Shown here: positions 28,071 to 51,390 of the stretch, one piece after another | Layout of the letters: each line of letters starts with the position of its first letter | Numbering within the stretch: the first letter of the stretch is position 1 | Assembly: GCA_017936375.1 (NCBI GenBank) | Contig: JAGBFR010000037.1 | Span: forward strand, 1-64,000 | Source of the DNA: Clostridia bacterium | Lineage (GTDB): Bacteria; Bacillota; Clostridia; Christensenellales; Aristaeellaceae | Direction of reading: 5' to 3' | Length of the DNA: 64,000 bases | Program-made: the position numbers and the translations under genes | Notes under the pieces: model-generated | The model's database searches: none | What the model was told of the DNA's origin: nothing | What the model saw: the letters and a program-made list of their open reading frames with translations, nothing else

Positions 28071-28090
28071 GGTACACCTCAATGAGTTAT

Positions 28091-30539: not shown

Positions 30540-30551
30540 GGTTTCTCTCCT

Positions 30552-31064: not shown

Positions 31065-31068
31065 CGAA

Positions 31069-33311: not shown

Positions 33312-33349
33312 AAGTTTTCCTCACAGTCCTGTTTAAATCTATTTGATAA

Positions 33350-34660: not shown

Positions 34661-34713
34661 ATGCCAAGTGTTCTCCTCAATATGCTGTTTCTTACTCAAA
34701 ACACTGCAGCCTC

Positions 34714-35940: not shown

Positions 35941-35981
35941 CAATATCCCCTTTCGCGATTGATGACCATAGCTCGCAATTC

Positions 35982-37064: not shown

Positions 37065-37120
37065 TTTTCACATCTCTACCTTCAGTTCAAAACAGACAGA
37101 AACACCCTTTGAACTCTCAT

Positions 37121-38326
37121 TTAATTCATCAGAAAAGCTTTAAAGTTCTCAACATACTTTTCATAGTAGAACGGTTTATCATTAATTGCATTTGTCCGCA
37201 TAATATCTTTTTGCTCTCGCGTCAGAGCAATTAACGATTCTATTTTGTCAGCAATTCCTTCAATATCATGTGGATCTGGGACAATACAACCATTCACCAT
37301 ATCATGTACATATATTGCTATATCACTTGTCGCGTTTGCTATCACCGGAACACCAAGCGATAGTGACTCCGAAACCTTAGTCGGAAAGCCTGCATTTGTG
37401 CAAGTTTTGCTATCTCGCAACAAAATAGTAAAGTCAGATTGAGAAATAATCTTTTGAGCATTTGTATTACTCTGCAATCCATAGAACACAATGTGGTTTT
37501 CGAGCACCCGCAACTTATCTTGATACTCAGCTCTATGTGCTTCTGGAAATTGCCCAAGGAATTGATCTTTGGTAAACCCAATGAAACACATCTTGAAGTC
37601 AGGAATATTTCTTACGTGCAGCAAGACGTAGCAAACGTCCACAATCGCATCCACTCTGTCTTTCCAGCTAGATACCGGAATACCCTTTTCAGATATCAAG
37701 CTTGCATAAGCAATAGTGGTAGGCTGGTTGGTATCAGCAACCATAGTACGCTTTACTTCAACTGATAAAGGAGGAACGATCATAGTTTTTTCTGGATCAG
37801 GCATGCGTTTTTTCAGGTAATCACTCACAGCAATCCATTTATCGCAACTTGGAAGAATTTTGTGATCCATTACATATAAGTCACGCTTCTTGAGCCAGTA
37901 ACGAAGAAGATTATTCTTATGTGGTTCGTCAAACAGATCAACCTTATCACAGATCAAACGGATTCCTAGTCTTTGGCAGAAACGGATAATAGCCATATTG
38001 TATCCGGATGTACCAAGAGTACCGTACATAATTACTGAATCAATGGTGTACATTTTCCGTACTTCTTTTAGTATCCTTCGAAAAAGAATGGCAGGATATA
38101 CATTATTCACTCGATGAATTCCTCTAGAATACGGAATAGAATATATTTGCATATCGTCGCAAATCTTTTTCTGAAGTCCAGAATCAGGATCATCTTTGCG
38201 AAAGCAAAAGCAGATGACCTCATAACCGGCTGCCTTTATGGCTTTTGCATTTCCCCACACTCTTTTTCCGGCTGCATTTCCATCAGGAAATAGAAAATTA
38301 CCCGTATAGATTATTGCTTTCTGCAT
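37121..38326 (-). CDS. Family 4 glycosyltransferase
   Basis: 401 aa. N-terminal IIYTGNFLFPDGNAAGKRVW (acceptor domain), C-terminal TNAGFPTKVSESLSLGVPVI and NGCIVPDPHDIEGIADKIE (donor site). The start at 38326 is chosen by its distance from AAAGGG. Capsule assembly; sugar and linkage unknown. Confidence 0.85.
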   Translation of the reverse strand: MQKAIIYTGNFLFPDGNAAGKRVWGNAKAIKAAGYEVICFCFRKDDPDSGLQKKICDDMQIYSIPYSRGIHRVNNVYPAILFRRILKEVRKMYTIDSVIMYGTLGTSGYNMAIIRFCQRLGIRLICDKVDLFDEPHKNNLLRYWLKKRDLYVMDHKILPSCDKWIAVSDYLKKRMPDPEKTMIVPPLSVEVKRTMVADTNQPTTIAYASLISEKGIPVSSWKDRVDAIVDVCYVLLHVRNIPDFKMCFIGFTKDQFLGQFPEAHRAEYQDKLRVLENHIVFYGLQSNTNAQKIISQSDFTILLRDSKTCTNAGFPTKVSESLSLGVPVIANATSDIAIYVHDMVNGCIVPDPHDIEGIADKIESLIALTREQKDIMRTNAINDKPFYYEKYVENFKAFLMN

Positions 38327-38354
38327 TGATTGCATCCCTTTTCTACTCAATGTT

Positions 38355-39257
38355 CTATTTCACTTTTGGCAACTCAAAACACTCACCCAAGATATAATCA
38401 AAGTTATCAGGTTCATATGACATATATCCACTCGCGCCAAAGAATGTGAGTTCACCAAATATGACTCTTGACCCAATTGAATACATATCAACCCGAACAT
38501 GCGGAAAAGGCGCTGAAAGCACCTCTACAATACGTTTCATTTTAGCATAGTTTTCAGGCACTATTGGATCTTCAGTCATTACACTCTGAGTTGTACTTTG
38601 ATATGGCAATCTATTAAAGTCAGCATCCATGATTGCAAGTTCGCCATGATTTCCAAGCTCTCTATTGGCAATTACATACACACATGCTATTTTACCGCCA
38701 AAGCAAAAAAACTTGTAGTCTATCAATCCGTTATTGTCATGTAGATATTCTTCGGCAATGACCCGGTGTTTTCGGAAATCATAAACCCATTCTCTGCCCG
38801 GATTCTTGGCGCGGATTGTAGTATTGACCCATGATTGCATTTGGTTTCGTATTGCATCAAGGTCAGCATTGCCTTTATCTTCAACAATAATTACCGAATT
38901 TCCGCCACTCCCCAATGTATCCTTTAACACGAAAGACTGCGGTAGCGCATCAAAATCAACATCCTCTGAAGAACAATAAACCCCATAGCAAGTGGCCAGG
39001 GTGTCTTTTAGGCCCATTTCAGCCACATATTGCCGAACATCATATTTATCAACACACCGAGGCATACAGGGATTACGGTAGTTCAACTTATACCACTGCA
39101 GTTTTTCAGAAAACCTTTGTGGTTTTTTCAGATTAAGCTTTCTGCCAGTTTTAATGCGATACTGAAGTCTTAACATCCAGGAGTCTGGCACAAAGCTAAG
39201 CAACTGCATGATCTTAACTCTGGTGGACCGGCTTTTTATCAGCTTCTTGTAATCCAT
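38355..39257 (-). CDS. TupA-like ATP-grasp protein
   Basis: 300 aa. FSEKLQWYKLNYRNP (50-64), VDKYDVRQYVAEMGL and VLKDTLGSGGNSVIIVED with the C-terminal GELTFFGASGYM match the TupA-like ATP-grasp family found in capsule loci, where members may ligate amino acids to uronic acids of the polysaccharide. That would suit the UDP-hexuronate genes here; inferred. GAGGG before the ATG. Confidence 0.82.
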   Translation of the reverse strand: MDYKKLIKSRSTRVKIMQLLSFVPDSWMLRLQYRIKTGRKLNLKKPQRFSEKLQWYKLNYRNPCMPRCVDKYDVRQYVAEMGLKDTLATCYGVYCSSEDVDFDALPQSFVLKDTLGSGGNSVIIVEDKGNADLDAIRNQMQSWVNTTIRAKNPGREWVYDFRKHRVIAEEYLHDNNGLIDYKFFCFGGKIACVYVIANRELGNHGELAIMDADFNRLPYQSTTQSVMTEDPIVPENYAKMKRIVEVLSAPFPHVRVDMYSIGSRVIFGELTFFGASGYMSYEPDNFDYILGECFELPKVK

Positions 39258-39267
39258 TCCACTACCC

Positions 39268-40362
39268 TCAAATCTGCTTTACTTCATCCACAACCATCTT
39301 CACAACGATCTGACGGTCAAACTCTCTCTCCATCTTCGCCCGACCTGCAAGTCCCATCTCGCGGCGCTCCTCCCAAGTCATCTGCATGAACTTATCCACA
39401 GCAGCAATCAGCGCAACTTCATCCTTGATAGGAACGACAAAGCCCGTCTTGCCGTCATCAACGGTCTCACGGCAGCCGCTGCGGTCGGTTGCGACAATCG
39501 GGCGTGCGCTGGAAGCGGCCTCCAGCAGCACATTGCTCATGCCTTCCGGATAGTAGGAAGGATGCACGATGCAATGCGCCATGGTGAAGAATGGTACCAT
39601 ATCCTTCTGCTGGCCGTGATATTTGATGTAACCTTCTGCTTCTGCCTTTTTCAGAATCTCCAAGTAAGCTTCGTCATCACACATACCGCAGATGTGGAAC
39701 AGCGTATTGGGATAACGGTCATGGATTGCCTTGGCGCAGGCCAGATACAAATCGATGCCCTTCTCCTTCATCACGCGGGCAATATAGAGAAAGTGAATTG
39801 TATTTTCTTGCAGATAGGGCTTAATCTGATGCTTCTCCAGATTAACACCGGAACCCGGCAGCAAAACAGCACGGCTCTTTTTGTTCAGCATCTTTCGCTC
39901 ACGGAAGAACTGTTCGTTTTCACTGTTTTGGAAGAACACACACTCAGCACCAGCCACCCCCCACTTATAGAGACGGGTAGTCAGCATCTGAAGTTTACCG
40001 GGGATCTCAACGGCGGTTCCAAGACCAGTAATATTGGGCAAATAACGAATGCCCAACAGGCGGCAGGCCATGCCGCCATATACGTTGGGCTTAATGTTAT
40101 TGGTCAGTACAACATCCGGCCTGCTCTTCCGAAGCAAAGTCAGCAGTTCCCACATCAGTTTAAGATCGCCCAATGGGTTAGAGCTTCGCCTGCCAATTGT
40201 GACATCTACCACATTGCATCCCATTGCCGTCAGTTCCTCTTTATGCGAAAGCACCTGTGCAATTACCGTGACGGCATGCCCTTCCGCAATCAGAGCTTCC
40301 AGTATTTCGCGCCGTAGATTATAGATAAATGTCGTATCATTCGCAATGAGCGCAACTTTCAT
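39268..40362 (-). CDS. Family 4 glycosyltransferase (early capsule step)
   Basis: 364 aa. N-terminal VALIANDTTFIYNLRREIL, PNITGLGT, donor site YPEGMSNVLLEAASSARPIV and TDRSGCRETV. This type typically adds the second sugar onto the lipid-linked sugar made by the priming transferase directly upstream; the stop of that gene is four bases away. RBS AGAGGAA. Confidence 0.88.
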   Translation of the reverse strand: MKVALIANDTTFIYNLRREILEALIAEGHAVTVIAQVLSHKEELTAMGCNVVDVTIGRRSSNPLGDLKLMWELLTLLRKSRPDVVLTNNIKPNVYGGMACRLLGIRYLPNITGLGTAVEIPGKLQMLTTRLYKWGVAGAECVFFQNSENEQFFRERKMLNKKSRAVLLPGSGVNLEKHQIKPYLQENTIHFLYIARVMKEKGIDLYLACAKAIHDRYPNTLFHICGMCDDEAYLEILKKAEAEGYIKYHGQQKDMVPFFTMAHCIVHPSYYPEGMSNVLLEAASSARPIVATDRSGCRETVDDGKTGFVVPIKDEVALIAAVDKFMQMTWEERREMGLAGRAKMEREFDRQIVVKMVVDEVKQI

Positions 40363-40365
40363 TGC

Positions 40366-41133
40366 TCATTTCCTCTCATTCTCAGTTGTATGCTTAAATC
40401 CTTCGACAACCCCACTTGCGCCAAACAGCTTCGGAATGGTTGCCAAGACAATTTTCGCGTCTGTAATGAACCCAAAGTTCTCAAGATACTTCACATCCCA
40501 CCGCACTTTGTCTGCAGGCGTCACAGTATCTCTTCCGTTAATCTGAGCAAGACCCGTAAGACCCGGACGCACTTTATATACGCCACACTTAAACCGGAGT
40601 TCGTGAATCTCATATTCATCCGAAATCAACGGACGCGGACCGACAATGCTCATATCGCCCTTGACGATATTGATCAACTGAGGAAGTTCATCAATGGACC
40701 ACTTTCTCAAGACTCGTCCCACTCTGGTAATGTACTTATTCGGATCATCCACCTCGCTGGTAGACAAATACTTGGGTGTATCACATCTCATTGTTCGAAG
40801 TTTATACAGCTTGAACCTACGACCGCCCAAACCCACGCGATACTGGCTAAAAAGCACCTGTCCAGGATCGTCGATATACATGATGGCGAAGACAATCAGC
40901 ATCGGAACAGCTATCACTACCAGCCCAATCGCCGAAAGAATGATATCCAAAGCTCTCTTTATAACCCGGTATTCTCTGCTGGTAACATTGACGAACTTCA
41001 GATCATTTACTGCCTGTTCATCAATCTTCCCTGCCGAGTTCACAGAGCGAGCCATCTTGTCCTGCACTACCTGCGGTATTTCAAGGCCTTCTTCGCTCTT
41101 ATTCAAGCAAGCTTTATTTTGCACCATGCTCAT
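40366..41133 (-). CDS. Undecaprenyl-phosphate sugar phosphotransferase (priming enzyme)
   Basis: 255 aa. One hydrophobic hairpin (IILSAIGLVVIAVPMLIVFA), then GQVLFSQYRVGLGGRRF, YKLRTM, RKWSIDELPQLINIVKGDMS, GPRP and RPGLTGLAQINGRD, the full signature of the PglC/WcaJ catalytic domain. The long N-terminal membrane domain of WcaJ is absent (PglC-like size). Start at 41133 or 41127, both near AAGGA. It begins repeat-unit synthesis. Confidence 0.92.
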   Translation of the reverse strand: MSMVQNKACLNKSEEGLEIPQVVQDKMARSVNSAGKIDEQAVNDLKFVNVTSREYRVIKRALDIILSAIGLVVIAVPMLIVFAIMYIDDPGQVLFSQYRVGLGGRRFKLYKLRTMRCDTPKYLSTSEVDDPNKYITRVGRVLRKWSIDELPQLINIVKGDMSIVGPRPLISDEYEIHELRFKCGVYKVRPGLTGLAQINGRDTVTPADKVRWDVKYLENFGFITDAKIVLATIPKLFGASGVVEGFKHTTENERK

Positions 41134-41266
41134 TACTTCCTTCTCAAAAGTAAACTTATGCCTTTGCGCAGCAAACGTCCTGTAACGCACACTCATCCAA
41201 CAAATCTTTCGAAGAAAACGCTCAATGAATCTCTTTTGTCCACAGAAAACGTTTTCACAAGCTAAG

Positions 41267-41293
41267 AAGAGACCGCAAAACATGCGGCCTCTT
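41267..41293 (-). promoter_or_regulatory. Stem-loop in the 270-bp gap before the glycosyltransferase block
   Basis: Nearly perfect 11-bp stem (41267-41277 with 41283-41293), followed on the minus strand by a short CTTCTT tail. It may be a weak terminator or processing site separating the RiPP/ABC part from the glycosyltransferase part of the operon. Nothing coding was found in 41134-41404. Confidence 0.45.
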
Positions 41294-41404
41294 GTGAGAA
41301 AGCAGCTTGGCTCCCGCCGAAACCGCATAATATGCTGTTGTTCTGTTCAGGTCTAACAGAATTCAATATGCATCCAATCAATTGACGTCCATTTGCAAAG
41401 ATAA

Positions 41405-43156
41405 TCAATCGATATAAAGCAGCTTATGCAGATAGCCGTCCGGCCTCTCCAGAAGCTCCTTCAGGGATCCATCCTCGGTAATTCTTCCATTCTCAAGAAC
41501 GATGGCATTCTGTGCCGTGCGGACCGTCGCCAGACGATGCGCAATGATCAGCACAGTGATCTCCTTGTCAAGCGCGCGCACGGCCTCGCGTACCGCCGCC
41601 TCGCTCTCGTAATCCATCGCGCTGGTCGCCTCGTCCATGATGATCAAGCGCGGATGCCCGAGCAGCACGCGCGCCAGCACGATCCGCTGACGCTCACCGC
41701 CGGACAGGCGCACGCCCTCGTCACCGAGCGGCGTATCCAGTCCATCCTTGAGCCCGCTGACAATGCCCCACGCCTGCGCCTTCTTGAGCGCCTCGATCAT
41801 CTCCGGCTCCGTTGCCGTCGGATGGAAGCGCTGAAGGTTCTCGCGCACGGACGCATGCAGAATCAGCGGCTCCTGCGGGATATAGCCCAGGCTTTGCCTC
41901 CAGCCCGGCAGCGTCTCCCTCGTCAGCGGCACGCCGTCTATGAGGATTTCGCCGCTGGTGGGGTGCAGGAAGCCAAGCAGCAGGTCGGCAATCGTCGTCT
42001 TTCCTGCGCCGCTGCACCCGACAAGCGCCGTCGTCGTTCCCTTCTTCAGCGAAAACGACACGCCATCCAGCACGTTCTCCGTGCCGTCATGATAGGCAAA
42101 CGTAACGCCGCGGAACTCAATCTCCCGTTCAAAGGGCATCGCTGGAGGATTCTCCGGCTCGCTGCCCGTCTGCTCAAGCGCCGCAAGCGCCTCGCTCAGC
42201 TTTTCATGCGCCGGCACGCTGGACAGGATGCTCTGCAGACGGCCATAGAAGCCGCTGAACACCGGCCACAGCCGCATAAACACATACACCAGCACCATCA
42301 GGCGCGCGGTATCCATCTTAAAGAAGAGCACGCACACGATGAAGATGACGCCGATCATGAACGCCGCCGCGCAGGAATAGATCACCTGCGGGAAAGCGCG
42401 CAGCTTGACATACTTCATCTTCGCCTGACGGAAGGAATCGCTGATCTCGTCAAAGAGCTTCGTGTGCTCGCGCTGCACGTTGTAGGTGCGCACTTCCTTC
42501 ACGCTGCGCAGCTGATTGAACAACTCGGAATACATCGCGCGGTTGATGCGGATCATTTCCTCGCCATATTCCTTGGACACGCGGAACATGCCCCTAAACA
42601 TCAGCACAAACGCCGCGCCGCACACGCAGACGAAGATCGTCACCGGCAGGCTCAGCCAGATCGCGATGCCCAGCTGCACAGCCGCAGAGACCAGCGACGA
42701 GATCATGTGGATCATATCTGCTACGCCATAACTGACCTGACTGCACTGCGCAGTAAAGAGGTTGATCGTGTCGGACTGCCTACCCGCCGTCAGCTTCTCC
42801 CAATCCGCGCGGGACACCGCCTGATACAGCGAATCGCGCAGGCTATAGGAATAATCCTCCAGAAACCGCGTCTCCCGCAGGGAGAGCAGCCGCCCGAGCA
42901 GTGCCTTGAAGACCACGAGCACAAAGTACATCGCGATCAGCACCACGACCTGCTGCGGATAGGAAAGCCTCTGCAGCGGCGCGGTCAGCACGGACAGCGC
43001 AGATACGGACGCCTGCGATATGTCCAGCAGCCCGAGCATCGGAATCAGCATGACGATGGAGATGCCGCCCGTCATGGACACCGCAATATTGAGCAGCAGG
43101 ATCGTCAGGAAACCCTTTCTATCCCGCTGCCATACGTCTCTGAGTATTTCTTTCAT
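41405..43156 (-). CDS. ABC exporter, fused membrane and ATPase domains
   Basis: 583 aa half-transporter. About six transmembrane helices (20-320), then an ATPase domain with Walker A (GCSGAGKTT), Q loop (YIPQEP), signature LSGGERQR, Walker B (LIIMDEATSAMD) and H-loop (IAHRLATV). There is no N-terminal C39 peptidase domain, so leader removal would need another protease, for example the S26-type protein at 47077-47577. It lies directly downstream of the HprK-PqqD gene and likely exports the mature peptide. Confidence 0.92.
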   Translation of the reverse strand: MKEILRDVWQRDRKGFLTILLLNIAVSMTGGISIVMLIPMLGLLDISQASVSALSVLTAPLQRLSYPQQVVVLIAMYFVLVVFKALLGRLLSLRETRFLEDYSYSLRDSLYQAVSRADWEKLTAGRQSDTINLFTAQCSQVSYGVADMIHMISSLVSAAVQLGIAIWLSLPVTIFVCVCGAAFVLMFRGMFRVSKEYGEEMIRINRAMYSELFNQLRSVKEVRTYNVQREHTKLFDEISDSFRQAKMKYVKLRAFPQVIYSCAAAFMIGVIFIVCVLFFKMDTARLMVLVYVFMRLWPVFSGFYGRLQSILSSVPAHEKLSEALAALEQTGSEPENPPAMPFEREIEFRGVTFAYHDGTENVLDGVSFSLKKGTTTALVGCSGAGKTTIADLLLGFLHPTSGEILIDGVPLTRETLPGWRQSLGYIPQEPLILHASVRENLQRFHPTATEPEMIEALKKAQAWGIVSGLKDGLDTPLGDEGVRLSGGERQRIVLARVLLGHPRLIIMDEATSAMDYESEAAVREAVRALDKEITVLIIAHRLATVRTAQNAIVLENGRITEDGSLKELLERPDGYLHKLLYID

Positions 43157-43173
43157 ATCCGGAGCGCGCCCTC

Positions 43174-44238
43174 TCAGGCGTCAAGAAGACCCATCGTGAC
43201 AAACTGCTCCAGCAGCGCGTCCAGATCCTTCTTCGCCGTCTCCTCGTCCACGTCAAACTCCGCAAGCACCGCCTGCAGCAGATCGTCGCGAGTCACAGCA
43301 TGCTCCAGCTGCTTAAAGACAAACGCGGACACCTCGTTGAGCACGACCGCGCCGTCGAACTTCGCAATGTTATCGCCCGTGGGCATGACGATGAACTCGT
43401 CCACCACGTTGCGCAGGACAAACCCGTCCTTAATCTTCATTTCTTCCTCATCTGCCTCTCTGATTTTCTCAGGATGATTGAAAAGAATATCGTAAATAAC
43501 TTTCGCCGCATCTCCGTCCGGCCCGCAGAATACGCGGTACACCGGCGTCTTGTCGATCAGGCGGCGGACATTGGCCATCGCCATCACAGCGGCATCCGTG
43601 TCCCACATGGGCACAAAGCTCTGCTGCATAATGAGCTGCCTCGCCTGATCACGGGTCAGCTTACGGATATAATTCGCCGGAGAGCGGCGCACTTCCAGAA
43701 TCGCCTTGAGCGGGCGCTCGACGTCGCGGAAGATCTGCTCCTTGCCATCCCACGGCACGCCGCAGGCCGTGCTGCCTTCCTTTTCAAGGCGCACAGCGGG
43801 GCGGTCTCCGCTGATCCACTCAAAGCCAAGCGTGTCGACCCACGCCTTCGCGCGGGTGGATTTGCCAAGGCCGGAGTGGCCGGTGAAGGCCACGGCGTAT
43901 TCGCCGTTTTCCACGCAGGCCGCATGGAGAGATACAATGCCCTCGTAGCAGAAGCGGCATTCGAAGGCGGTGCGGATCAGGAAGCGTTCAGAGTTCTCGT
44001 TGACACCTAAATGCTCCAGCTGCTCGGTATACAACTCAATACAATCATAATCATCACTGGCAATCACATATGTATCTCGGATTCCATTTCGCAGTTGAAA
44101 GCACCATTGCCCTAAATCATTACAAAAAATCTCAATTTCATCCATTTTGACAACTGGTTCCATCTCGTTTATATGGATGTCGTCAGCACAAAGTGGATGC
44201 TTCAAAACATTGAGACTTATAGTGTCATATAGCGTCAT
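43174..44238 (-). CDS. HPr-kinase-like / PqqD-like fusion protein
   Basis: 354 aa. The first 95 residues are unassigned. An HprK-type kinase core follows (SLHAACVENGEYAVAFTG, Walker A GHSGLGKST at 120-128, SGDRPAVR, GVPWDGKEQIF). Residues 267-354 form a PqqD-like domain (KIKDGFVLRNVVDEFIVMP ... FDGAVVLNEVSAFVFKQL). PqqD folds are RiPP recognition elements that bind precursor leaders. The kinase could phosphorylate the peptide, as lasso-peptide HprK homologs do. It follows a precursor gene by 22 bases. The fusion of both functions in one chain is the notable point. Confidence 0.88.
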   Translation of the reverse strand: MTLYDTISLNVLKHPLCADDIHINEMEPVVKMDEIEIFCNDLGQWCFQLRNGIRDTYVIASDDYDCIELYTEQLEHLGVNENSERFLIRTAFECRFCYEGIVSLHAACVENGEYAVAFTGHSGLGKSTRAKAWVDTLGFEWISGDRPAVRLEKEGSTACGVPWDGKEQIFRDVERPLKAILEVRRSPANYIRKLTRDQARQLIMQQSFVPMWDTDAAVMAMANVRRLIDKTPVYRVFCGPDGDAAKVIYDILFNHPEKIREADEEEMKIKDGFVLRNVVDEFIVMPTGDNIAKFDGAVVLNEVSAFVFKQLEHAVTRDDLLQAVLAEFDVDEETAKKDLDALLEQFVTMGLLDA

Positions 44239-44260
44239 AATCTACACTCAATCCATTAAT

Positions 44261-44452
44261 TTAGGAAGGCTGCCAGTCGCTCTCAAACCAACAAGGATCT
44301 ACCGACCTTGTCACAACACCAACTCGGTATAGCTCGCAACTATTTCCCTGCGCAACAAAGCCAGCCCCGCTACAAGTTGAAGTTGCTCTAACCTGCTCTT
44401 CATATTGATAATCAATCAAGCGTGCAATAGGTGCCGCATACTTTTTCTTCAC
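44261..44452 (-). CDS. RiPP precursor peptide 1
   Basis: 63 aa from a GTG start, GGAGTG site 9 nt before. The leader (1-25: MKKKYAAPIARL, then QYEEQV) shares Met1, Lys2, Lys3, Tyr5, Pro8, Ile13, Gln16, Tyr17, Gln20, Val21 and Ser25 with the second precursor at 45752-45886. The core has three Cys (27, 39, 54), many Ser/Thr/Gly, and an aromatic end (CWFESDW). It is followed by HprK-PqqD and preceded by a radical SAM/SPASM gene, so Cys- or aromatic-centred crosslinks are plausible. No known precursor family recognised. Confidence 0.78.
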   Translation of the reverse strand: MKKKYAAPIARLIDYQYEEQVRATSTCSGAGFVAQGNSCELYRVGVVTRSVDPCWFESDWQPS

Positions 44453-44473
44453 ACTGGTTCACTCCATTCACTT

Positions 44474-45643
44474 CTATCCTAGTCGAATCATTCCTTCTGC
44501 TGCCAAGCGTCTTGCCCTAATGCAGAAAGCAGGATTCGCATGACCAATTGGTGCTCCGTCTGCATGTAGTTTTACACAGGCAGGGCAAACTTGACTATAC
44601 GCACATCCAATACATTCCTGGGGGAAAGGATAGTCAAGGGCCCCCTGATGAATCAAATTCCATGCATCCGAAAACCTTCTCTCTGTTAACGAAGTACTTA
44701 TCTCTGACATCATCAAGCAGGGTTGCATTGTTCCATGCCAAGTTACTGCAAACGAGCTTCTACCCCCACCACATCTGAATCCACGCGGGTTTTCCGTAAT
44801 TCTTCCCCCAACCGGAAGAAGATCATCTTGACAGACCGGTTTATACTCTCTTCCTTCGATCTTCGCCTGCAGCTTATATAGATGTATGTATTCATCCAAT
44901 GACAAATCATGGCATTTATCTGCTCTGCCAGTTTCTTCTCGCGGACGGAATAAACCAGCATTAACGGAGTACATTACATCCAACCGATCAACAAGGCTCA
45001 ATAGTTCTGCGCCAAAATCAACCATATATCGATTTGGCGTGATTCCAACATTAACAGTAATCCCCGCATCTTTCAGTTTATTAATCGCCTTCAGTACTTT
45101 TGAAAAGACGCGATGACCTGTTACTTTTTCATAATTGTCCTCGTTATCCCCATAAAGAGAAATCTGAATTGCTTTAGGTCGATGCCGCTTGAAAAAATCA
45201 ATTCTCTCATCATCGAGCATCAGGCCATTTGTGTTAACAGCAGTTAGCACCCCTTTGTCTAGCAGATGCAGAAAAATATCACGAAACTCCGGATGCATCA
45301 TAGCTTCGCCGCCAGTTAACAAGGCAAACAACATACCATGCTCTACAGCTTGATCAATGATTCTTTTCCACTGATCACCCGTCAACATTTTCTTGCTATT
45401 TGCCTGCAGCTGCTGAGACGTTAAATGTACATAGCACATTTTACAGTCCAAATTGCACAGAGGTGTGAGTTCAAAAGTCCCCCTGATCGGAATCCCTGCT
45501 ATTCTGGCTTTCTTATCCAGATAGGAATTCATTTGGGTTTCGATTCGACCTTTGCTGGCTTGTTCTCTCTCGAGGTTATCAATAACCGCCACAAGCCCAT
45601 CTGTTTCTTTGATCTGATGCTGCAATACACTCACCCAACTCAC
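44474..45643 (-). CDS. Radical SAM/SPASM peptide maturase 1
   Basis: 389 aa. The SAM-cluster motif CNLDCKMC is at 63-70, and a C-terminal SPASM domain has Cys344, Cys347, Cys353, Cys356 and Cys374 plus an earlier CGGG...C pair, enough for two auxiliary iron-sulfur clusters. SPASM enzymes crosslink or oxidise ribosomal peptides. It is paralogous to maturase 2 with identical cysteine spacing at the C terminus, and lies 21 bases from precursor 1. Start uncertain: GTG 45643 or a TTG at 45625 after GGGTGA. AT-rich. Confidence 0.9.
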   Translation of the reverse strand: MSWVSVLQHQIKETDGLVAVIDNLEREQASKGRIETQMNSYLDKKARIAGIPIRGTFELTPLCNLDCKMCYVHLTSQQLQANSKKMLTGDQWKRIIDQAVEHGMLFALLTGGEAMMHPEFRDIFLHLLDKGVLTAVNTNGLMLDDERIDFFKRHRPKAIQISLYGDNEDNYEKVTGHRVFSKVLKAINKLKDAGITVNVGITPNRYMVDFGAELLSLVDRLDVMYSVNAGLFRPREETGRADKCHDLSLDEYIHLYKLQAKIEGREYKPVCQDDLLPVGGRITENPRGFRCGGGRSSFAVTWHGTMQPCLMMSEISTSLTERRFSDAWNLIHQGALDYPFPQECIGCAYSQVCPACVKLHADGAPIGHANPAFCIRARRLAAEGMIRLG

Positions 45644-45751
45644 TCAATCAGACATACCCACATGGCCTCAATTCCTTTTTCAGCCAGCATACAGAAACTC
45701 ATTACGATATTATGACTTTTTATAAACACTATACGATTCTCAAGTCACTAT

Positions 45752-45886
45752 TTACTGGTGCTCCACACAATAATCCGAGCCAGCCGCCTTGTAATACTGT
45801 CCAATTTCTCTGCTCGCAACCACAACCTGATCCCTATACTGGAATGCAATCTTCTCCACGGTCGGAGTTTCATAGGTCTTCTTCAT
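45752..45886 (-). CDS. RiPP precursor peptide 2 (44 aa)
   Basis: A short gene with a perfect AGGAGG site 8 nt before the ATG at 45886 and a TAA at 45754-45752. The product starts MKKTYETPTVEKIAFQYRDQ and continues to a core with Tyr31, Tyr32, Tyr39 and one Cys (40), ending VEHQ. The first 25 residues align without gaps to precursor 1 (11 identities), while the cores differ, as expected for paralogous precursors sharing a leader-recognition system. It sits between the two radical SAM genes. Confidence 0.8.
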   Translation of the reverse strand: MKKTYETPTVEKIAFQYRDQVVVASREIGQYYKAAGSDYCVEHQ

Positions 45887-45933
45887 TTTCTTTTCCTCCT
45901 AGAAAATTTCTTTTTAATATACTGAAACTGCAC

Positions 45934-47061
45934 TTAGAGCAGTCCTTCAGCCTTCATTCTTTTCGTCCAATCGCAAATCCTTCGACTTGCATGGCCGATT
46001 TCTGCTCCAGAAGCGTGTTCAGCAACGCAGTTCCTGCACTCGCTCCTGTATGAACATCCCTCACACTCTTTGGGTAACGGAAATGCATTTGCAATCGAAT
46101 TGATTCTCTTCCATGCCTCGTCAAAACCAAGTTCGATCACATTCTCAGCTTTACACGGAAATGCATTACAGGGAAGAAGTCCACCCCTCCAGTCAACAGC
46201 AAAACTACCTCTTCCCGCACTGCAGTGAACACCAATCAAACTGTCATCACAATTTCCACCCGGCTCAGGAAGCAACTCTATATCGCATTCCGGTTCAGGC
46301 AATATACCATTCTGTTCTTTCAGCAACCGAAATAGTTTCACATATGTTTCAAGTCCGGCATCAGCCAAATCCCTTTCCGTCTCTTTCCTTGGAGCAATCA
46401 ATCCCGAACTGATCTGATAGGAAAACTCATGATCTTTCAGAAATCTGAGAATCTCTTCCCCGTCCATCATATAGGAACTAGGGGTCACAGCAATCACTAA
46501 AGGCAAACCAGCCTCTTTGATTCTTGTAATATTCTGGACAATATCTCTGAACACTCGTTTTCCAGTCACCCGTTCATAAGCATCCTCGCTTGCTCCATAG
46601 AGGGATACCTGAATCATGGAAGGTGTATTCCTGTTTAGAAACTCCACCATCTCCTCATCCATAAGCAATCCATTGCTCAGGATTGATATCTCGACCCCAT
46701 ATTCGCGTAAAAAGAGGTACAGCTCCTTAAATCCCGGATGTGTCAAACATTCTCCACCTGTCAACGTAGCATACATCATGCCGGCGTCAATTGCCTGCTG
46801 CATGATGTCCTTCCACTGCTCTGTCGTCAGCAGCTGCGCACCCTTCATCTGCTCCTTATTCAGATGCACATAGCACATCTTGCAATCCAGATTGCACAGC
46901 GGCGTCAGCTCAAAGCTGCCGGAAATCGGGACGCCCTTGTCCCTCGCCTTGAAGTTCAGATATCGGCGCACTTCCTCATATCGCCGGTGATCGGTGGTCC
47001 CTTGCTCGTCAAGCCTTGCAAGAAGGGCACGGAGGGTCTTTGGCATCTCCATATCCGCCAT
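45934..47061 (-). CDS. Radical SAM/SPASM peptide maturase 2
   Basis: 375 aa. CNLDCKMC at 56-63, a GGE motif (LTGGECLTHPGF), HCSAGRGSFAVDWRG, and SPASM cysteines at 333, 336, 342, 345 and 363. The C-terminal cysteine spacing is the same as in maturase 1, so the two arose by duplication. It directly precedes precursor 2 in the transcript. Likely acts on precursor 2, with leader binding supplied by the PqqD-like domain; pairing is inference from order. Confidence 0.9.
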   Translation of the reverse strand: MADMEMPKTLRALLARLDEQGTTDHRRYEEVRRYLNFKARDKGVPISGSFELTPLCNLDCKMCYVHLNKEQMKGAQLLTTEQWKDIMQQAIDAGMMYATLTGGECLTHPGFKELYLFLREYGVEISILSNGLLMDEEMVEFLNRNTPSMIQVSLYGASEDAYERVTGKRVFRDIVQNITRIKEAGLPLVIAVTPSSYMMDGEEILRFLKDHEFSYQISSGLIAPRKETERDLADAGLETYVKLFRLLKEQNGILPEPECDIELLPEPGGNCDDSLIGVHCSAGRGSFAVDWRGGLLPCNAFPCKAENVIELGFDEAWKRINSIANAFPLPKECEGCSYRSECRNCVAEHASGAEIGHASRRICDWTKRMKAEGLL

Positions 47062-47076
47062 TGCCCCTCACCCCTC

Positions 47077-47577
47077 TCACTTCTTCTTCGTAAACATCTT
47101 CCGATACACCCGCGCCGCCAGCCCCCTGCACCGCAGGTACGCCTTCCTCACGGGGAATATCGCCATCCAGAACAGTCCGAACGCGCGCGCCGCGCGGCTG
47201 TCCAGCCGCCATGTGCGCCCGCCGCGCTCCATCTTGACCACCAGACCCCAGATCATGTCCATCGGCATCCATCGGTCAGGATTCAGGCAGTTATCGCCCA
47301 GCGTCTGCACGAGGCCGTCCCGCATCCGGTAAACGCGGTGCACGACGTAGCGCTTCTCTCCGCCCTTGAAGAGAACGACGTCGCCCTTTTGGATCGGCCG
47401 CATCAGCGGCAGGATCGTCACCCTGTCCCGCCCGCGCCGGATCAGCGGGCGCATGCTGTCTCCCTCCAGCGTGATCGTCACAGGAAGCATATTGCCCTCA
47501 AGCCCCAGCTCATGCCACTGCTCGATGCCAAGGCTGCGCGTCTGCACAGGCTCGCTTTCCGGTCTGGTCGTCGTCAC
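47077..47577 (-). CDS. S24/S26-type signal-peptidase-like protease
   Basis: 166 aa. Catalytic Ser in LEGDSMRPLI (about 42), then GDVVLF and a His in YVVHRV (about 79), the Ser-His arrangement of ER/SipW-type peptidases rather than Ser-Lys. No N-terminal anchor; the C terminus is basic with a hydrophobic stretch. Such short peptidases recur in RiPP loci with HprK/PqqD and ABC genes and could remove the leader. It overlaps the cpsD stop by four bases, tying the RiPP module to the capsule operon. Confidence 0.82.
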   Translation of the reverse strand: MTTTRPESEPVQTRSLGIEQWHELGLEGNMLPVTITLEGDSMRPLIRRGRDRVTILPLMRPIQKGDVVLFKGGEKRYVVHRVYRMRDGLVQTLGDNCLNPDRWMPMDMIWGLVVKMERGGRTWRLDSRAARAFGLFWMAIFPVRKAYLRCRGLAARVYRKMFTKKK

Positions 47578-48308
47578 TTGTTGTCCTTCTTCTCGCCGCG
47601 CCCGTAGTACTTGCTGTAATAGCCGTCGTAGCGGCGCGAGTTGTAGTAGTAGAATCTGTTGCTCATGCTGTTGAACTTGACCTCGTTGAGCACGGAGCCG
47701 AGCATGCGGCAGCCCGTCTGGCGGATGCTCTCCACCGCCGTGCCGATCTCGCGCCGTCTGCCCTGGCGATAGCCCACGACCAGCAGCGCGCCGTCGCAGA
47801 ACTTAGCCAGCGCCACCGCGTCGACGAGGATGCCGACCGGCGGGGTATCCACCAGCACGACGTCAAACTCTGTCGCCAGCCAGTCCATCAGTTCCTCCAT
47901 CTTCGCCGTATCCAGCAGCTGAAGCGGGTTCGGCGCGCGATGACCGGCGGGGATGAGCCACGCATTGGGGACCGTCGTCTGGTACATCGCCTGATCGATC
48001 CCGCAGTGGCCGGCAAGGTACTCCGCAAGGCCGTAGCTGTGCTCGGATTCATAGCGGAGCCTGTAGTTGGCCTGAATGCCGGAGGCGCGCAGATCCGTAT
48101 CGATGAGGACGACGCGCTTGCCCATGCCGGCGAACGTGCGCATCAGGTTCATGGTCACATAGCTCTTGCCCTCTCCGGCATAGCGGCTGGTAACCATGAT
48201 CGTGCGGATGTCATCGCCGCAGTAGGAGAGGTTGGTGACCAGCGTATTGAAGCCCTCCGCCGAGATGTAATCCAGCTCGGGGAAGCGGGTGATCTTTACC
48301 GTGTTCAT
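47574..48308 (-). CDS. cpsD: CpsD-type bacterial tyrosine kinase
   Basis: 244 aa. Walker A (SRYAGEGKS, 41-49), Walker A' (VVLIDTDLRASG), Walker B (VVLVDTPPVG) and a C-terminal tyrosine cluster (NRFYYYNSRRYDGYYSKYYG), the autophosphorylation tail of BY-kinases. Works with CpsC to control chain length and assembly. ATGA overlap with cpsC. Confidence 0.93.
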   Translation of the reverse strand: MNTVKITRFPELDYISAEGFNTLVTNLSYCGDDIRTIMVTSRYAGEGKSYVTMNLMRTFAGMGKRVVLIDTDLRASGIQANYRLRYESEHSYGLAEYLAGHCGIDQAMYQTTVPNAWLIPAGHRAPNPLQLLDTAKMEELMDWLATEFDVVLVDTPPVGILVDAVALAKFCDGALLVVGYRQGRRREIGTAVESIRQTGCRMLGSVLNEVKFNSMSNRFYYYNSRRYDGYYSKYYGRGEKKDNK

Positions 48309-49174
48309 ATCGTGATGTTCCTCTCCGCCTGTCGCTTCTCTTCCCGGCGCGCAGCCTTGCGCATGTCCTTGGTAGAGGGAAGGACGGCCAGCGTCGGGAT
48401 GCCGCCGTAGTCGCTGATGTCCTCCGGCGTGCGCGGGCGCTCGTCAAGGACGAAGAGCAGCGTCAGGATGCCGACGGCCAGCACGCTGCCCAGCATGAAG
48501 CCCATGATCAGCGAACGGCTCTTGCTCGCCGCATAGCCCACGCCGGGCACAAGGGCGATCGAGAAGTCGCTGGGCATTTCGCCCTTCATCGTGCTGATGA
48601 TGAATTCCTTCGCCGCGCGCGCGTAGGCGTTGGCGATGTCCGCCGCCATCTGCGCATCCGGGAAGGCCACGGTGATGTACAGGATGCGCGTGTCCTCCGG
48701 GTTGGTGACCGTCAGCATCTGCTGCATCATCTCGTAGGTATACGGCAGGTTCAGCTCCTGACGGACCATCTCATGGACTTCCCAGGTCTTGAAGACCTCC
48801 TGATAGTCGAGCGTCAGCACCGTGCCCAGCTGCAGATCCAGCATGTCGATGCCGGAACTCTCGGGGTTGACGATGTAGAGCTTGGCCGTGGCGGTATAGG
48901 TCGGCACGGAGCGGCTTGCCCTGAAGCCCATCAGCGCCGCACAGAGGATCGCCGCCAGCAGCACGCACCAGAACTTTTCCAGCACGTAGAACATCAGGCC
49001 GATCAGGTCAATGGTCTTCGGCTCGTTTTCCGGCTTTCTCTGGCTGGGTGCATTGGCCTCCACGCCCATCTCGCGGAGCGTCTGCTCCACGGCGAGCTTC
49101 ACCGCATAGGTCAGCTGCGGATCCTGCGGCACGCCGGCGCCCTGATTTTCCTGTGATTGCTTGTTTCTTCGCAT
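48305..49174 (-). CDS. cpsC: CpsC/Wzz-type chain-length regulator and kinase adaptor
   Basis: 289 aa. Two transmembrane helices (about 61-78 and 235-253) flank an extracellular Wzz domain (YTATAKLYIVN; TVLTDYQ-like strand). The cytoplasmic tail activates CpsD. The first 50 residues form an unusual soluble N-terminal extension with glutamine-rich character. Confidence 0.9.
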   Translation of the reverse strand: MRRNKQSQENQGAGVPQDPQLTYAVKLAVEQTLREMGVEANAPSQRKPENEPKTIDLIGLMFYVLEKFWCVLLAAILCAALMGFRASRSVPTYTATAKLYIVNPESSGIDMLDLQLGTVLTLDYQEVFKTWEVHEMVRQELNLPYTYEMMQQMLTVTNPEDTRILYITVAFPDAQMAADIANAYARAAKEFIISTMKGEMPSDFSIALVPGVGYAASKSRSLIMGFMLGSVLAVGILTLLFVLDERPRTPEDISDYGGIPTLAVLPSTKDMRKAARREEKRQAERNITI

Positions 49175-49177
49175 GGC

Positions 49178-50356
49178 TTACTTCGCGTTGTCCTCCTCGG
49201 CGATCGGCTCGCTGAATACGACGAGCATCGCCGGCTCCTCCTCCATCGTCGGGATCACCAGCTGCTTGAAGACGAGCTCAACATGCCCGTTCTCCTCAAG
49301 CGCTTCCGCGCGGAGGCAGTACCAGTCAAAATACGGCGCTTCGGTCGCTCCCTCGATCGGGAAGCCGAGCATGGCAGCCATCCGGCTGTCCGGCGAATAG
49401 GCCGCAGCGAAGAGATTCTCCGTCGCGACGTCGCCGTAGGTGTCCTTGTAGTTTTCCGCCATCACGGCTACGATGTCATAGATGACCATGTCCGTGACGA
49501 CGAGGTCGACCGGGTGGAGCAGCTGCGTCTGGCGCTGCATCTCCTCCGGGAACCAGGTGATCGGCGCGCCGCCGCTGCCAATGTGCTCGGCGATGCGGGC
49601 GATCTCCTTCTCCATCTCCTCCGTCCTGTCGACGAGGAAGATGCTGAAGTCATCCTCGATGACCTCGCCGGTCGTGCTGTACCAGCGGCGGATCTTGATC
49701 AGATCGCGCGCGCCCTTACTGGGGGTGACGATGCGCTCGCGCTCGATCACTTCCTCCGAGAGGATGCCGCCGCGCGCGCCCTCGCGCACCGTCAGCACGT
49801 GGAAGGTCACCTGCGGTCCGGTCATCGCCTTATACTCCTCGGCCGGCACGTCATAGAGGATCCTGCCCGTCTCCGGCACCTCGCCGCGATAGGGGAACCA
49901 GCGGTACTCGCCGTCCTCCTTCTCAATGCCCATCACGACGACGATCAGCTGGCCGGGCTCGTAGTCGACGTCCAGCAGCACGTTCATCTTCACCGGCTCC
50001 TGCGGATGACCCGCCAGTTCCAGCCCCATGAACTCCGTCATGTGCAGCACGTCGATATCCACGCCGGAAAGCTCGGCGATCTTCTTTTGCGTCTCCTCGT
50101 CGTAGTAGCGCGCCGGGCGGTTGCCCTCGCGCCAGACGAAGGTATAGATATCCTCCAGCAGGGCGATCGACTTTTCATCCGGCAGCAGGACGGTCACCTC
50201 GCAGTCCTGATCCGCCTTGAAGGTCACGACCGCGTCCTGCGTCGGCACGCTGGGCACGTCCGTGTACTCGCCCTCGAGCATGGTGATCTGCTGAGCCTGC
50301 GCGCAGCCAAGGAGCATGCACGCCATCGCCAGCAGGCAGATAAGCAATTTCTTCAT
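49178..50356 (-). CDS. Exported protein, probable lipoprotein, unknown function
   Basis: 392 aa. Signal with a lipobox-like LLGC (MKKLLICLLAMACMLLGC). The rest is a soluble alpha/beta protein with no motif I recognise; a segment around PVDLVVTDMVIYD and a helical HIGSGGAPITWFPEEM stretch might bind a ligand. It lies between the LCP gene and cpsC, suggesting a role in capsule anchoring or assembly on the outer face. Start by an AAGGGA site. Confidence 0.7.
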   Translation of the reverse strand: MKKLLICLLAMACMLLGCAQAQQITMLEGEYTDVPSVPTQDAVVTFKADQDCEVTVLLPDEKSIALLEDIYTFVWREGNRPARYYDEETQKKIAELSGVDIDVLHMTEFMGLELAGHPQEPVKMNVLLDVDYEPGQLIVVVMGIEKEDGEYRWFPYRGEVPETGRILYDVPAEEYKAMTGPQVTFHVLTVREGARGGILSEEVIERERIVTPSKGARDLIKIRRWYSTTGEVIEDDFSIFLVDRTEEMEKEIARIAEHIGSGGAPITWFPEEMQRQTQLLHPVDLVVTDMVIYDIVAVMAENYKDTYGDVATENLFAAAYSPDSRMAAMLGFPIEGATEAPYFDWYCLRAEALEENGHVELVFKQLVIPTMEEEPAMLVVFSEPIAEEDNAK

Positions 50357-50379
50357 GTTCTCAGTCCCTTCACAAGGCA

Positions 50380-51390
50380 TCAGTCAAACCAGATCTCAAC
50401 AACCATATCCTCCATCGAGGCCGCGTCCGGGTGGAATTCCATAAACCCATCCTCGCCGGCCTCATGCGTGCCGGGCAGCATCTGCAGCGGCTGCCAGTCG
50501 TACGTCTGGTACGCCGTCACGTCGCCGATGAGCGTATTTTCGCCCGCGTCGGAGATCACGTGACCATCAAGCGCCTCCAGCAGATCCGCCATGAAGGAGC
50601 TGTCCTTCTCCATCTTGATCTCAAGCTGGCGCAGCAGCGCCTTGATGTAGACCTTCTGCCGCTCCATACGCGAGGCGTTGCTGCCGTCCGCGACGGTCAT
50701 GCGCCCGCGGACAAACTTTTCCGCCATCGCGCCGTCCAGCGTGACGGTCTCGCCCTTTTTAAGCGCCGGGTCAAGCGCGGTCAGGTCGTCGTCAAGCGTG
50801 ACGCTCACGCCGCCGAGCATGTCGTTGAGCAGCGGGATGCCGCTCTCGTCCATGGCGATGTAGTGATTGATCTTCACGCCGCCGAGCAGATCGGTCACCG
50901 CGCGCGTCGTATTCTCGCTGCCGCTCGTCTCGCGCCCGCTGAAGGCCTGCGCCAGACAGATCTGCATCTCTTTCTTTCCGGCTGCGTCGCCGAAGATGCC
51001 GTAGGTCGCAACATCCGTCACTGTGTCGCGGTCGATCATCACCGGGGTGATCGTCCTGTGCCTGCGGTCGATGCTCAGCACGAGCAGGAAGTCCGCCTGG
51101 CCGCCGTTCTGATGGTCGCTCGCCTCAAGCGTCGTTTGGTCAACGCCGATGAGCAGATAGTTGGTGATCTCGCGCTCGCGGTAATTCACCGTCTGCCCGT
51201 CATGATCTTTGTAGATATCGGAGTCAAAGCGCCCTTCCAGGGAGCCGAAGGTGGGCTGCTCTTCCTCCTTGTCCCGATCGAGCACGAAGCCCAGAATGAG
51301 AACCCCCAGCAGCACCGCCCCGTAGAGCAGCACCATCAGGATGTGCCGCCGCCTCACAGAGCGCTTATTGCCGTACGGGTAATTCGTCAT
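50380..51390 (-). CDS. LytR-CpsA-Psr (LCP) family ligase
   Basis: 336 aa. One N-terminal membrane helix (18-38), then the LCP core: NYLLIGVDQ, QADFLLVLSIDRRHRTITPV and MIDRDT (conserved Arg/Asp set), SRMERQKVYIKALLRQ. LCP proteins attach lipid-linked glycans to peptidoglycan. First gene of the capsule operon, 137 nt from its promoter. Confidence 0.92.
   Translation of the reverse strand: MTNYPYGNKRSVRRRHILMVLLYGAVLLGVLILGFVLDRDKEEEQPTFGSLEGRFDSDIYKDHDGQTVNYREREITNYLLIGVDQTTLEASDHQNGGQADFLLVLSIDRRHRTITPVMIDRDTVTDVATYGIFGDAAGKKEMQICLAQAFSGRETSGSENTTRAVTDLLGGVKINHYIAMDESGIPLLNDMLGGVSVTLDDDLTALDPALKKGETVTLDGAMAEKFVRGRMTVADGSNASRMERQKVYIKALLRQLEIKMEKDSSFMADLLEALDGHVISDAGENTLIGDVTAYQTYDWQPLQMLPGTHEAGEDGFMEFHPDAASMEDMVVEIWFD

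Follow-up and report, generated by a model that had tools for sequence, protein, structure and literature searches.

Why does a capsule operon carry the genes for a radical S-adenosylmethionine (SAM)-modified peptide? The question is raised by a stretch of 64,000 nucleotides from a Clostridia bacterium of the Aristaeellaceae (assembly GCA_017936375.1, contig JAGBFR010000037.1, positions 1 to 64,000), here called the window, in which an initial annotation had placed a two-precursor radical SAM module for ribosomally synthesized and post-translationally modified peptides (RiPPs) inside a capsule operon. As far as sequence comparison can tell, that placement is confirmed, and all of the named parts are present. 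The module is probably a RiPP pathway in which a chassis like that of the linear polyphosphorylated peptides (LPPs) and of paeninodin is combined with radical SAM enzymes, and which is run inside a Wzx/Wzy capsule operon.

All coordinates are positions in the window. The seven module genes are intact and tightly spaced on the minus strand from 47577 to 41405 (open reading frame (ORF) check), in the reading direction: peptidase, radical SAM enzyme rSAM1, precursor A1, radical SAM enzyme rSAM2, precursor A2, HprK-PqqD fusion and ATP-binding cassette (ABC) exporter. With CpsD ending at 47574 and the peptidase starting at 47577, the annotated 4-base overlap of the module with cpsD is real, and the annotated single direction agrees with the coordinates as well. 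Profile scans found Wzz, CpsD, an initiating sugar transferase, Wzx and a Wzy-like protein, i.e. the setting of a Wzx/Wzy capsule operon.

The two precursors share 11 identities over their first 25 residues, in line with the common 25-residue leader pattern described before. The leaders run from about 45886 to 45812 (A1) and from about 44452 to 44378 (A2), each up to Ser25, and are followed by the core REIGQYYKAAGSDYCVEHQ in A1 and by a core with three Cys in A2; upstream of the genes stand AGGAGG (A1) and GGAG (A2). A scan of species genomes returned 74 loci, of which 65 (L019-L083) are near relatives and L084-L092 were excluded as distant radical SAM enzymes. The relatives belong to Clostridia, Lachnospiraceae, Coriobacteria, Synergistaceae, one Anaerolineaceae bin and Prevotella/Bacteroidales; most are metagenome-assembled genomes (MAGs) with short contigs, and many carriers of the module are from rumen and gut. 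With a leader profile built on 19 peptides taken from the window and 13 loci, we searched all 24,418 stop-to-stop ORF segments of 92 loci and the window; counts refer to L019-L083 plus the window, with L001 and L009 (identical to the window) and L002 (same contig as L080) left out. Of the 65 matches scoring at least 20 bits, 64 share their strand with a radical SAM gene no more than 1.5 kb away; the other, in L027, is a peptide on the opposite strand. Reversed-sequence decoys gave no match of at least 20 bits and a single one of at least 10 bits (11.1). Matches of at least 20 bits were found in 39 of the 52 loci that had contributed no seed, and at a threshold of 10 bits the window and 55 of the 65 loci together yielded 71 peptides. 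Relatives with the enzymes and without precursors had been named as the finding that would undo the annotation; in our searches, precursor-like genes were kept at the same spots, and the chassis genes were likewise conserved between loci.

The family has a common layout, YExPxVEKVxFxYxDQVVAAS, and 48 of the 67 distinct peptides have a Cys no more than five residues past its Ser (L023_3424, which is too short, L034_9417, which has no xxP motif, and two duplicates were excluded from this set). A second core Cys, as read from the aligned peptides, follows the first by about 7-18 residues, and 47 of the 71 peptides have exactly two Cys. The Ser itself is near-invariant: 66 of the 67 have a Ser at positions 18-23, counting from the motif Tyr, where 47% would be expected by chance, although this count is biased upward because the profile that selected the peptides itself contains the Ser. 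The first Ser is at position 20 in 45 peptides and at 21 in 18, and the one exception carries Thr. Two further readings of the peptides were rejected: 'ASGC' is not a lipobox, as there is no hydrophobic signal helix and the Cys is often not adjacent to Gly, and a C-terminal Asn is no rule, being present in only 10 of 71 peptides.

Selection on the precursors was assessed by a simple Nei-Gojobori count over nine pairs. L020/L023 (55 codons) gave a dN/dS of 0.04 at a dS of 2.0, which suggests purifying selection on this one pair, at near saturation. Three close pairs from outside capsule loci (41-42 codons) had no amino-acid change in the first 25 codons and a pN of 0.29-0.36 in the remainder, where pS was 0.00 (L071/L078), 0.13 (L064/L072) and 0.42 (L061/L063); the other five pairs, including A1 against L020, are too diverged or gapped and carry little information. 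Hypervariable Cys cores behind unchanged leaders in these three pairs are as expected under conflict, and thus favour another reading, which we regard as possible but clearly less probable than ours: that the module is a sactipeptide- or ranthipeptide-like bacteriocin cassette, for which the capsule locus is a mere recombination hotspot and in which the kinase and nucleoside triphosphate (NTP)-transferase are vestigial or regulatory. No immunity or regulator gene was recognised within the module by profile scans, which does not fit such a cassette. Two observations on cores stand apart. L071 (a Lachnospiraceae MAG) and L078 (a Chloroflexota MAG) have nearly identical radical SAM enzymes, DNA-identical leaders and different cores; since the MAGs are from different phyla, this may be a transfer with core change or mis-binning. 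The core tail GRGRGGGCDGVPYHRNxRTFSSGRNSGC recurs almost unchanged in L043 (11189-11428; Lachnospiraceae) and L080 (11403-11675; Christensenella), with a different leader in each.

rSAM1 and rSAM2 show 41% identity, and both have CxxxCxxC and seven aligned C-terminal Cys, so that the identical C-terminal spacing noted earlier holds. Against PDB chains, the best solved match of their profile, over the radical SAM core, was the sactisynthase SkfB (6efn), a point for the bacteriocin cassette; PqqE was also among the matches. Sactipeptide and ranthipeptide systems (SkfB, CteB, PapB) use radical SAM/SPASM enzymes on Cys peptides with the help of a RiPP recognition element (RRE). The window differs in that its RRE is not fused to a radical SAM enzyme and that it has a kinase, an NTP transferase and a SipW-like peptidase. 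Among the best 25 of the 80-81 NCBIfam families matched by each enzyme, the maturase models for these classes all fell below their cut-offs (AlbA 67.7 against 850 bits, SkfB 77.4 against 300, PapB 52.5 against 340 and StsB 46.1 against 625). PqqD and SPASM enzymes are also the toolkit of pyrroloquinoline quinone (PQQ) and mycofactocin, and the peptides might be redox-cofactor precursors like PqqA or MftA. PqqE and the mycofactocin maturase do appear among the NCBIfam matches, at scores far under threshold (68.9 against 381 and 62.9 against 265 bits), and PqqE among the PDB matches; the length and sequence of the cores vary while the leaders stay fixed, and this variability makes the cofactor reading very improbable indeed.

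Pairing of rSAM1 with A1 and of rSAM2 with A2 is probable. Leaders beside enzymes of the rSAM1 clade are on average alike at 19.1 of 25 positions, against 11.5 to other leaders, a difference reached in 26 of 20,000 permutations. A strict pairing of enzymes by leader type was rejected, as the four leaders beside other enzymes form no group of their own (12.0 within). In the tree of the enzymes, rSAM2 is sister to that of L030 (support 99/97). As a separate observation, the genome of L077 (G103, ~1.2 Mb) has seven wider-family radical SAM matches at E<=1e-40; the other 49 genomes searched have 0 to 3.

The remaining module genes encode the kinase fusion, the peptidase and the exporter. Of the annotated HprK-PqqD fusion, the PqqD part stood without qualification (48.9 bits, Pfam cut-off 23.4), whereas the HprK part fell far below its cut-off (11.5 against 33.3) and is supported by the match of the family profile to PDB chains, which included HPr kinases (E 5.6e-5) as well as the lasso peptide RREs TfuB1 (2.4e-6) and TbiB1 (9.9e-6). 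His105, the P-loop Lys126, Asp145 and Trp163-Asp164-Gly165 are invariant in 25 of 25 aligned rows, and the strong conservation of the HprK core, the RRE and the precursor Ser speaks against a bacteriocin cassette with a vestigial kinase. The two domains are fused in the kin of the window and are separate genes in Bacteroidota and several others. The peptidase, though scoring below curated cut-offs, keeps Ser41 and His80, 39 residues apart, with GDSMRPLI and HRV conserved among the close relatives aligned, which upholds its earlier assignment to the S26 type. For the exporter the best families were HepA, a glucan exporter and MsbA, all under curated cut-offs, and no C39 domain was listed for it in the Pfam and NCBIfam scans, as had been annotated. 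Close orthologues of it (637-975 bits) occur only in L019, L020, L022, L024, L030 and L041 among the 65 loci. Since the operon has its own Wzx, and since no close orthologue was found in 12 module-free capsule stretches (described below), the ABC protein may serve the peptide rather than the glycan.

We examined the link to the capsule in ten informative loci, picked after viewing the neighbourhoods: the window and the others with a window-type exporter, plus L021, L023 and L083, which share the peptidase-rSAM start and whose contigs end before the exporter. L036 was excluded from this count (3.4 kb contig). Capsule genes lie within 1 kb of the module in nine of the ten (the window, L019, L020, L021, L022, L023, L030, L041 and L083), which argues against a bacteriocin cassette; in the exception, L024, a sugar transferase and a WecG-like gene lie ~5 kb downstream. 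Wzz is ~1.2-2.5 kb from the radical SAM gene in the window and in the genomes of L019, L020, L021, L041 and L083 (the neighbour searches behind these distances covered 50 and 49 of the 65 loci).

The corresponding sites of relatives were also compared. Among 59 relatives searched, 13 had CpsD at E<=1e-40. In G027 (same genus; gene coordinates as for L083), CpsD is followed by the peptidase and then by the contig end, where the start of the radical SAM gene was found. In the other 12, no S26, radical SAM or HprK-PqqD gene was found in the 1.0-12.9 kb examined after CpsD; weak matches were limited to generic ABC genes (43-66 bits; L108, L113) and a distant 12-bit leader match (L111). L109 adds no information here, as its stretch covers 1 kb after cpsD. 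In L104, L106 and L107, CpsD is followed by a ~240-aa gene and a sugar transferase. The module is thus a segment that varies within an operon whose other parts are much alike.

Two nucleotidyltransferases of the PF14907 family (NTP_transf_5), which probably belong to the peptide system, are encoded 12 kb away, at the far end of the capsule operon. Among 21 genomes with the module, 19 have a PF14907 match above the cut-off, compared with 8 of 37 relatives (the window's own genome being counted among these 37). The gene lies on the radical SAM contig within 20 kb in 12 of the module carriers; seven of the remaining nine have a radical SAM contig no longer than 10.1 kb, and two (G068 and G071) are real negatives. 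This co-occurrence, even at 12-18 kb, again tells against the bacteriocin cassette. The L020 genome has a tandem pair ~13 kb downstream, read the same way and followed by VanZ; the window proteins a and b are 67% and 47% identical to these copies at the same place, and three sugar genes separate the pair from VanZ in the window. In L041 a single NTP_transf_5 lies directly behind the exporter, and in L026 one lies between HprK-PqqD and the exporter. Decoration with a phospho-sugar by these linked enzymes is plausible.

How the module varies within the operon is indicated by its composition. GC content at third codon positions (GC3) is 0.80-0.89 from LytR to the peptidase and in the exporter. 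It drops from ~0.8 to 0.4 inside rSAM1 near 46,800, is 0.39-0.58 in A1, rSAM2 and A2, and recovers inside HprK near 44,030, giving a block of mostly 0.3-0.6 between flanks of 0.7-0.9; the downstream glycosyltransferase region is also low (0.35-0.58). Residues 1-90 of HprK-PqqD are hypervariable, with 3-37% identity to L019, L020 and L022 in 30-residue steps, and identity rises at residue 91 to 77-97% over residues 91-150. A like step (13-50%, then 77-87%) separates L019 from L020; L030 and L041 are less similar along the whole length. The trees of the parts conflict: the L041 radical SAM enzyme groups with the second enzymes of L019 and L020 (100/99), its exporter with L022 and L024 (100/100) and its kinase with L036 (99/96), several forks of the kinase tree being weakly supported. 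The simplest reading of these sequence data suggests that a block of radical SAM and precursor genes was swapped by recombination between fixed flanks; fast evolution of a specificity domain could partly explain the variable HprK N-terminus. A low-GC3 block would also suit a bacteriocin cassette. The coordinates of all features are collected in Table 1.

Table 1. Features of the module and of the surrounding capsule operon in the window
Feature	Coordinates	Strand	Evidence
Capsule operon start: LytR/CpsA (51390), 400-aa protein, Wzz, CpsD	47574..51390	-	Pfam/NCBIfam scans
S26/SipW-like (archaeal-type) serine peptidase, predicted leader peptidase (LppS-like)	47077..47577	-	TIGR02228, Ser41/His80
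rSAM1, radical SAM/SPASM, 375 aa, probably paired with A1	45934..47061	-	PF04055 81.9 bits; SPASM 18.5 bits, below cut-off
Precursor A1, ATG start, 44 aa	45752..45886	-	Leader profile 60.9 bits (itself a profile seed)
rSAM2, radical SAM/SPASM, 389 aa, GTG start, probably paired with A2	44474..45643	-	PF04055 78.5 bits
Precursor A2, GTG start, 63 aa	44261..44452	-	Leader profile 45.8 bits (itself a profile seed)
HprK-like kinase domain with C-terminal PqqD/RRE, one protein	43174..44238	-	PqqD 48.9 bits
ABC exporter, MsbA/HepA-like, no C39	41405..43156	-	PF00005 and PF00664
Putative exchanged block: most of rSAM1, A1, rSAM2, A2, HprK N-terminus	44030..46800	-	GC3, identity breaks
Rest of capsule operon: sugar transferase, two glycosyltransferases, EpsG (Wzy-like), Wzx; presumably also one further glycosyltransferase and sugar-nucleotide genes (named from ORF sequences)	29379..41328	-	Pfam
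NTP_transf_5 (PF14907) a, possible LppN/PsmN-like nucleotidyltransferase	28091..29359	-	136.2 bits, cut-off 31.2
NTP_transf_5 (PF14907) b	26793..28082	-	129.8 bits
VanZ-like membrane protein, possible accessory	23138..23698	-	PF04892 77.8 bits; follows NTP_transf_5 in L118, L119

Three further observations concern neighbouring or related genes. The 400-aa protein behind LytR (49178-50380) has no Pfam match; it has relatives (175-381 bits) in the module-carrying capsule loci L019, L020, L041 and L083, and a single weak match (22 bits, L107) across the 12 module-free stretches. L117 (4301-8090; same genus) has PqqD, HprK-like, S26 and NTP_transf_5 genes beside a short peptide and two reading frames, all three sharing a C-terminal EDELPW[V/I/L]PA tag (in one then NE), and no radical SAM gene was recognised in its 11 kb. 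L116 (667-5230; same family) has an LPP-like set (HprK-like, PqqD, S26, ABC and NTP_transf_5-like) with a Lys/Asn-rich 50-aa peptide; the set adjoins a polyphosphate kinase gene, and no radical SAM gene was recognised in 10 kb.

The initial annotation knew of no described RiPP class in such an operon. This does not hold: in Bacilli, according to Popov et al. 2026 (PMC13381572), both LPPs and lasso peptides of the paeninodin type are often encoded in capsule loci. LPP loci encode a SipW-like peptidase, an RRE, an HprK-like kinase, an NTP transferase and an MsbA-like exporter, and with LPP parts in laboratory hosts a Ser at core position 3 was phosphorylated and a YxxP leader was cut (PMC13381572). 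The gene set of the window is of the same kind, with an HprK-like domain (by profile only, below the Pfam cut-off), an NTP transferase (12 kb off), a SipW-like peptidase, an RRE and an MsbA-like exporter, at a capsule-locus site and with a patchy occurrence. Both systems have a YxxP leader with a variable C-terminus and a Ser at the core start (position 20-21 here, 19 in LPP), and the Ser41-His80 spacing of 39 equals that of S29 and H68 in LppS, which was compared by residue positions only. The differences from LPPs, as far as these are described there, are also clear. The window has two radical SAM/SPASM enzymes, and 'radical SAM' occurs 0 times in the main text of PMC13381572; its leader reads VEKVxFxYxDQVVAAS, the cores of its family have mostly two Cys and its NTP transferases are at the far operon end; and its RRE is fused to the kinase, where that of LPPs is discrete (as it is in Bacteroidota and other relatives). 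A purely linear product is unlikely with two radical SAM enzymes, and we would not file the module as an LPP; it would work like an LPP pathway with radical SAM chemistry added.

Other known systems share fewer of these parts. Paeninodin and pseudomycoidin have an HprK-like kinase, a PqqD-like B1 protein, a nucleotidyltransferase and a [Y/W]xxP leader; in pseudomycoidin the kinase phosphorylates a Ser, and the nucleotidyltransferase PsmN is needed for hexoses on the phospho-Ser (PMC9266682, PMC8498205). In place of the B2 protease and macrolactam synthetase of these phospho- and glyco-lasso peptides, the window has radical SAM enzymes; neither a B2 leader protease nor a C macrolactam synthetase was found by Pfam among 20 window proteins (a set that does not cover all operon ORFs), and no lasso model among the families listed scored at its cut-off. 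SynChlorMet systems (TIGR04248-TIGR04251) likewise combine a PqqD-like and an HprK-like protein with two radical SAM/SPASM enzymes. In the window their models scored below cut-off (ScmD 22 against 100, ScmE 62-63 against 400 and ScmF 62-65 against 400) and ScmC gave no match at E<=1; the stand-alone HprK-like proteins of L046 and L063 match ScmC at 41-43 bits (cut-off 125). We found no radical SAM enzymes on an LPP-like chassis among the best-ranked papers of the open full-text literature (which leaves aside subscription journals, preprints and supplements), and the available text of PMC10352776, PMC9062424 and PMC12710340 held nothing matching the module. RRE-Finder notes ~300 lasso-type RREs that co-occur with radical SAM enzymes (PMC7470986), so that family members may already appear in bulk surveys.

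The route that we infer follows from the match in kind between the non-radical SAM genes of the window and the LPP and pseudomycoidin sets, as far as those are described, and from the near-invariant Ser position. The PqqD/RRE domain of the kinase fusion would first bind the YxxP leader of A1 and A2; rSAM1 would then crosslink the core of A1, and rSAM2 that of A2, by radical chemistry, the simplest products being Cys thioethers; the Ser where leader and core meet would be phosphorylated by the HprK-like domain; the SipW-like peptidase would remove the leader close to this Ser; the NTP_transf_5 enzymes would attach a sugar or nucleotide to the phosphate; and the ABC protein would export the product together with the capsule. 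As a tentative and rather unlikely extension, the product might be a capsule-linked 'peptide type': radical-crosslinked, phosphorylated, sugar-decorated peptides displayed with the capsule, perhaps joined to the glycan by phosphate, with radical SAM/precursor pairs exchanged like serotype-specific sugar genes. Slightly less probable still is the specific case in which the modified peptide is joined to a capsule sugar as a peptide-phospho-glycan, so that the capsule carries a peptide epitope. An HprK-like kinase and a nucleotidyltransferase did give a phospho-hexosyl peptide in pseudomycoidin, and the capsule operon of both the window and the L020 genome carries two NTP_transf_5 genes close to its end; no ligase or sortase was identified, and LppN activity was not seen in a heterologous host (PMC13381572).

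Several points weigh against the combined LPP-like and radical SAM pathway. Deletion of lppN was without effect in the heterologous host (PMC13381572). The likeness to LPPs is one of described parts and motifs. The LPP leader consensus YxxPxVLxHQxIxFETxxS is not followed: in the 67 distinct peptides, which were chosen for [Y/F]xxP, the Y is present in 65 and the V in 45, while L, H, Q, I and F occur in 0, E in 15, T in 2 and a Ser at position 19 in 1. In the HprK-like domain, Gly replaces the first Asp of the DD pair of HPr kinases, and kinase activity is therefore uncertain. The best peptidase family, TIGR02228, scored 39.9 bits (E 3.6e-10) against a cut-off of 51.85, and the SPASM score is also below the Pfam cut-off. 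There was no leader match of at least 10 bits in 10 of the 65 loci; in four of these ten, the contig stops at or within the radical SAM gene. In the wider family, a homologue of the LytR, Wzz, CpsD or sugar transferase of the window was seen in only 11 of 65 loci, which favours the bacteriocin cassette, although many contigs are short and only window proteins served as queries. Lastly, the A1 core has a single Cys and lacks the first core Cys. Together with the mosaic GC3, and the two-Cys norm of the family, this last point could mean that the window copy is decaying, with the block recently imported; we consider this improbable, as every ORF is intact with tight spacing, the conserved radical SAM and kinase residues are retained, and HprK-PqqD and the exporter are still 68-70% and up to 76% identical, respectively, to their L019/L020 counterparts.

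If the pathway is as proposed, it would join two RiPP logics, phospho-modification by an HprK-like kinase and NTP transferase and crosslinking by radical SAM enzymes, on one leader and one RRE. It would extend the capsule-linked chassis of Bacilli to other Clostridia-type bacteria, in a leader and radical SAM family that reaches Bacteroidota, Coriobacteria and Synergistota. It also hints at a missing partner: LppN is silent outside its own host, and its likely homologues here lie among capsule sugar genes, perhaps the source of the substrate. A module in the capsule locus would tie the making of the capsule to a variable exported peptide, and a role of that peptide in the capsule becomes testable through the removal of one defined block.

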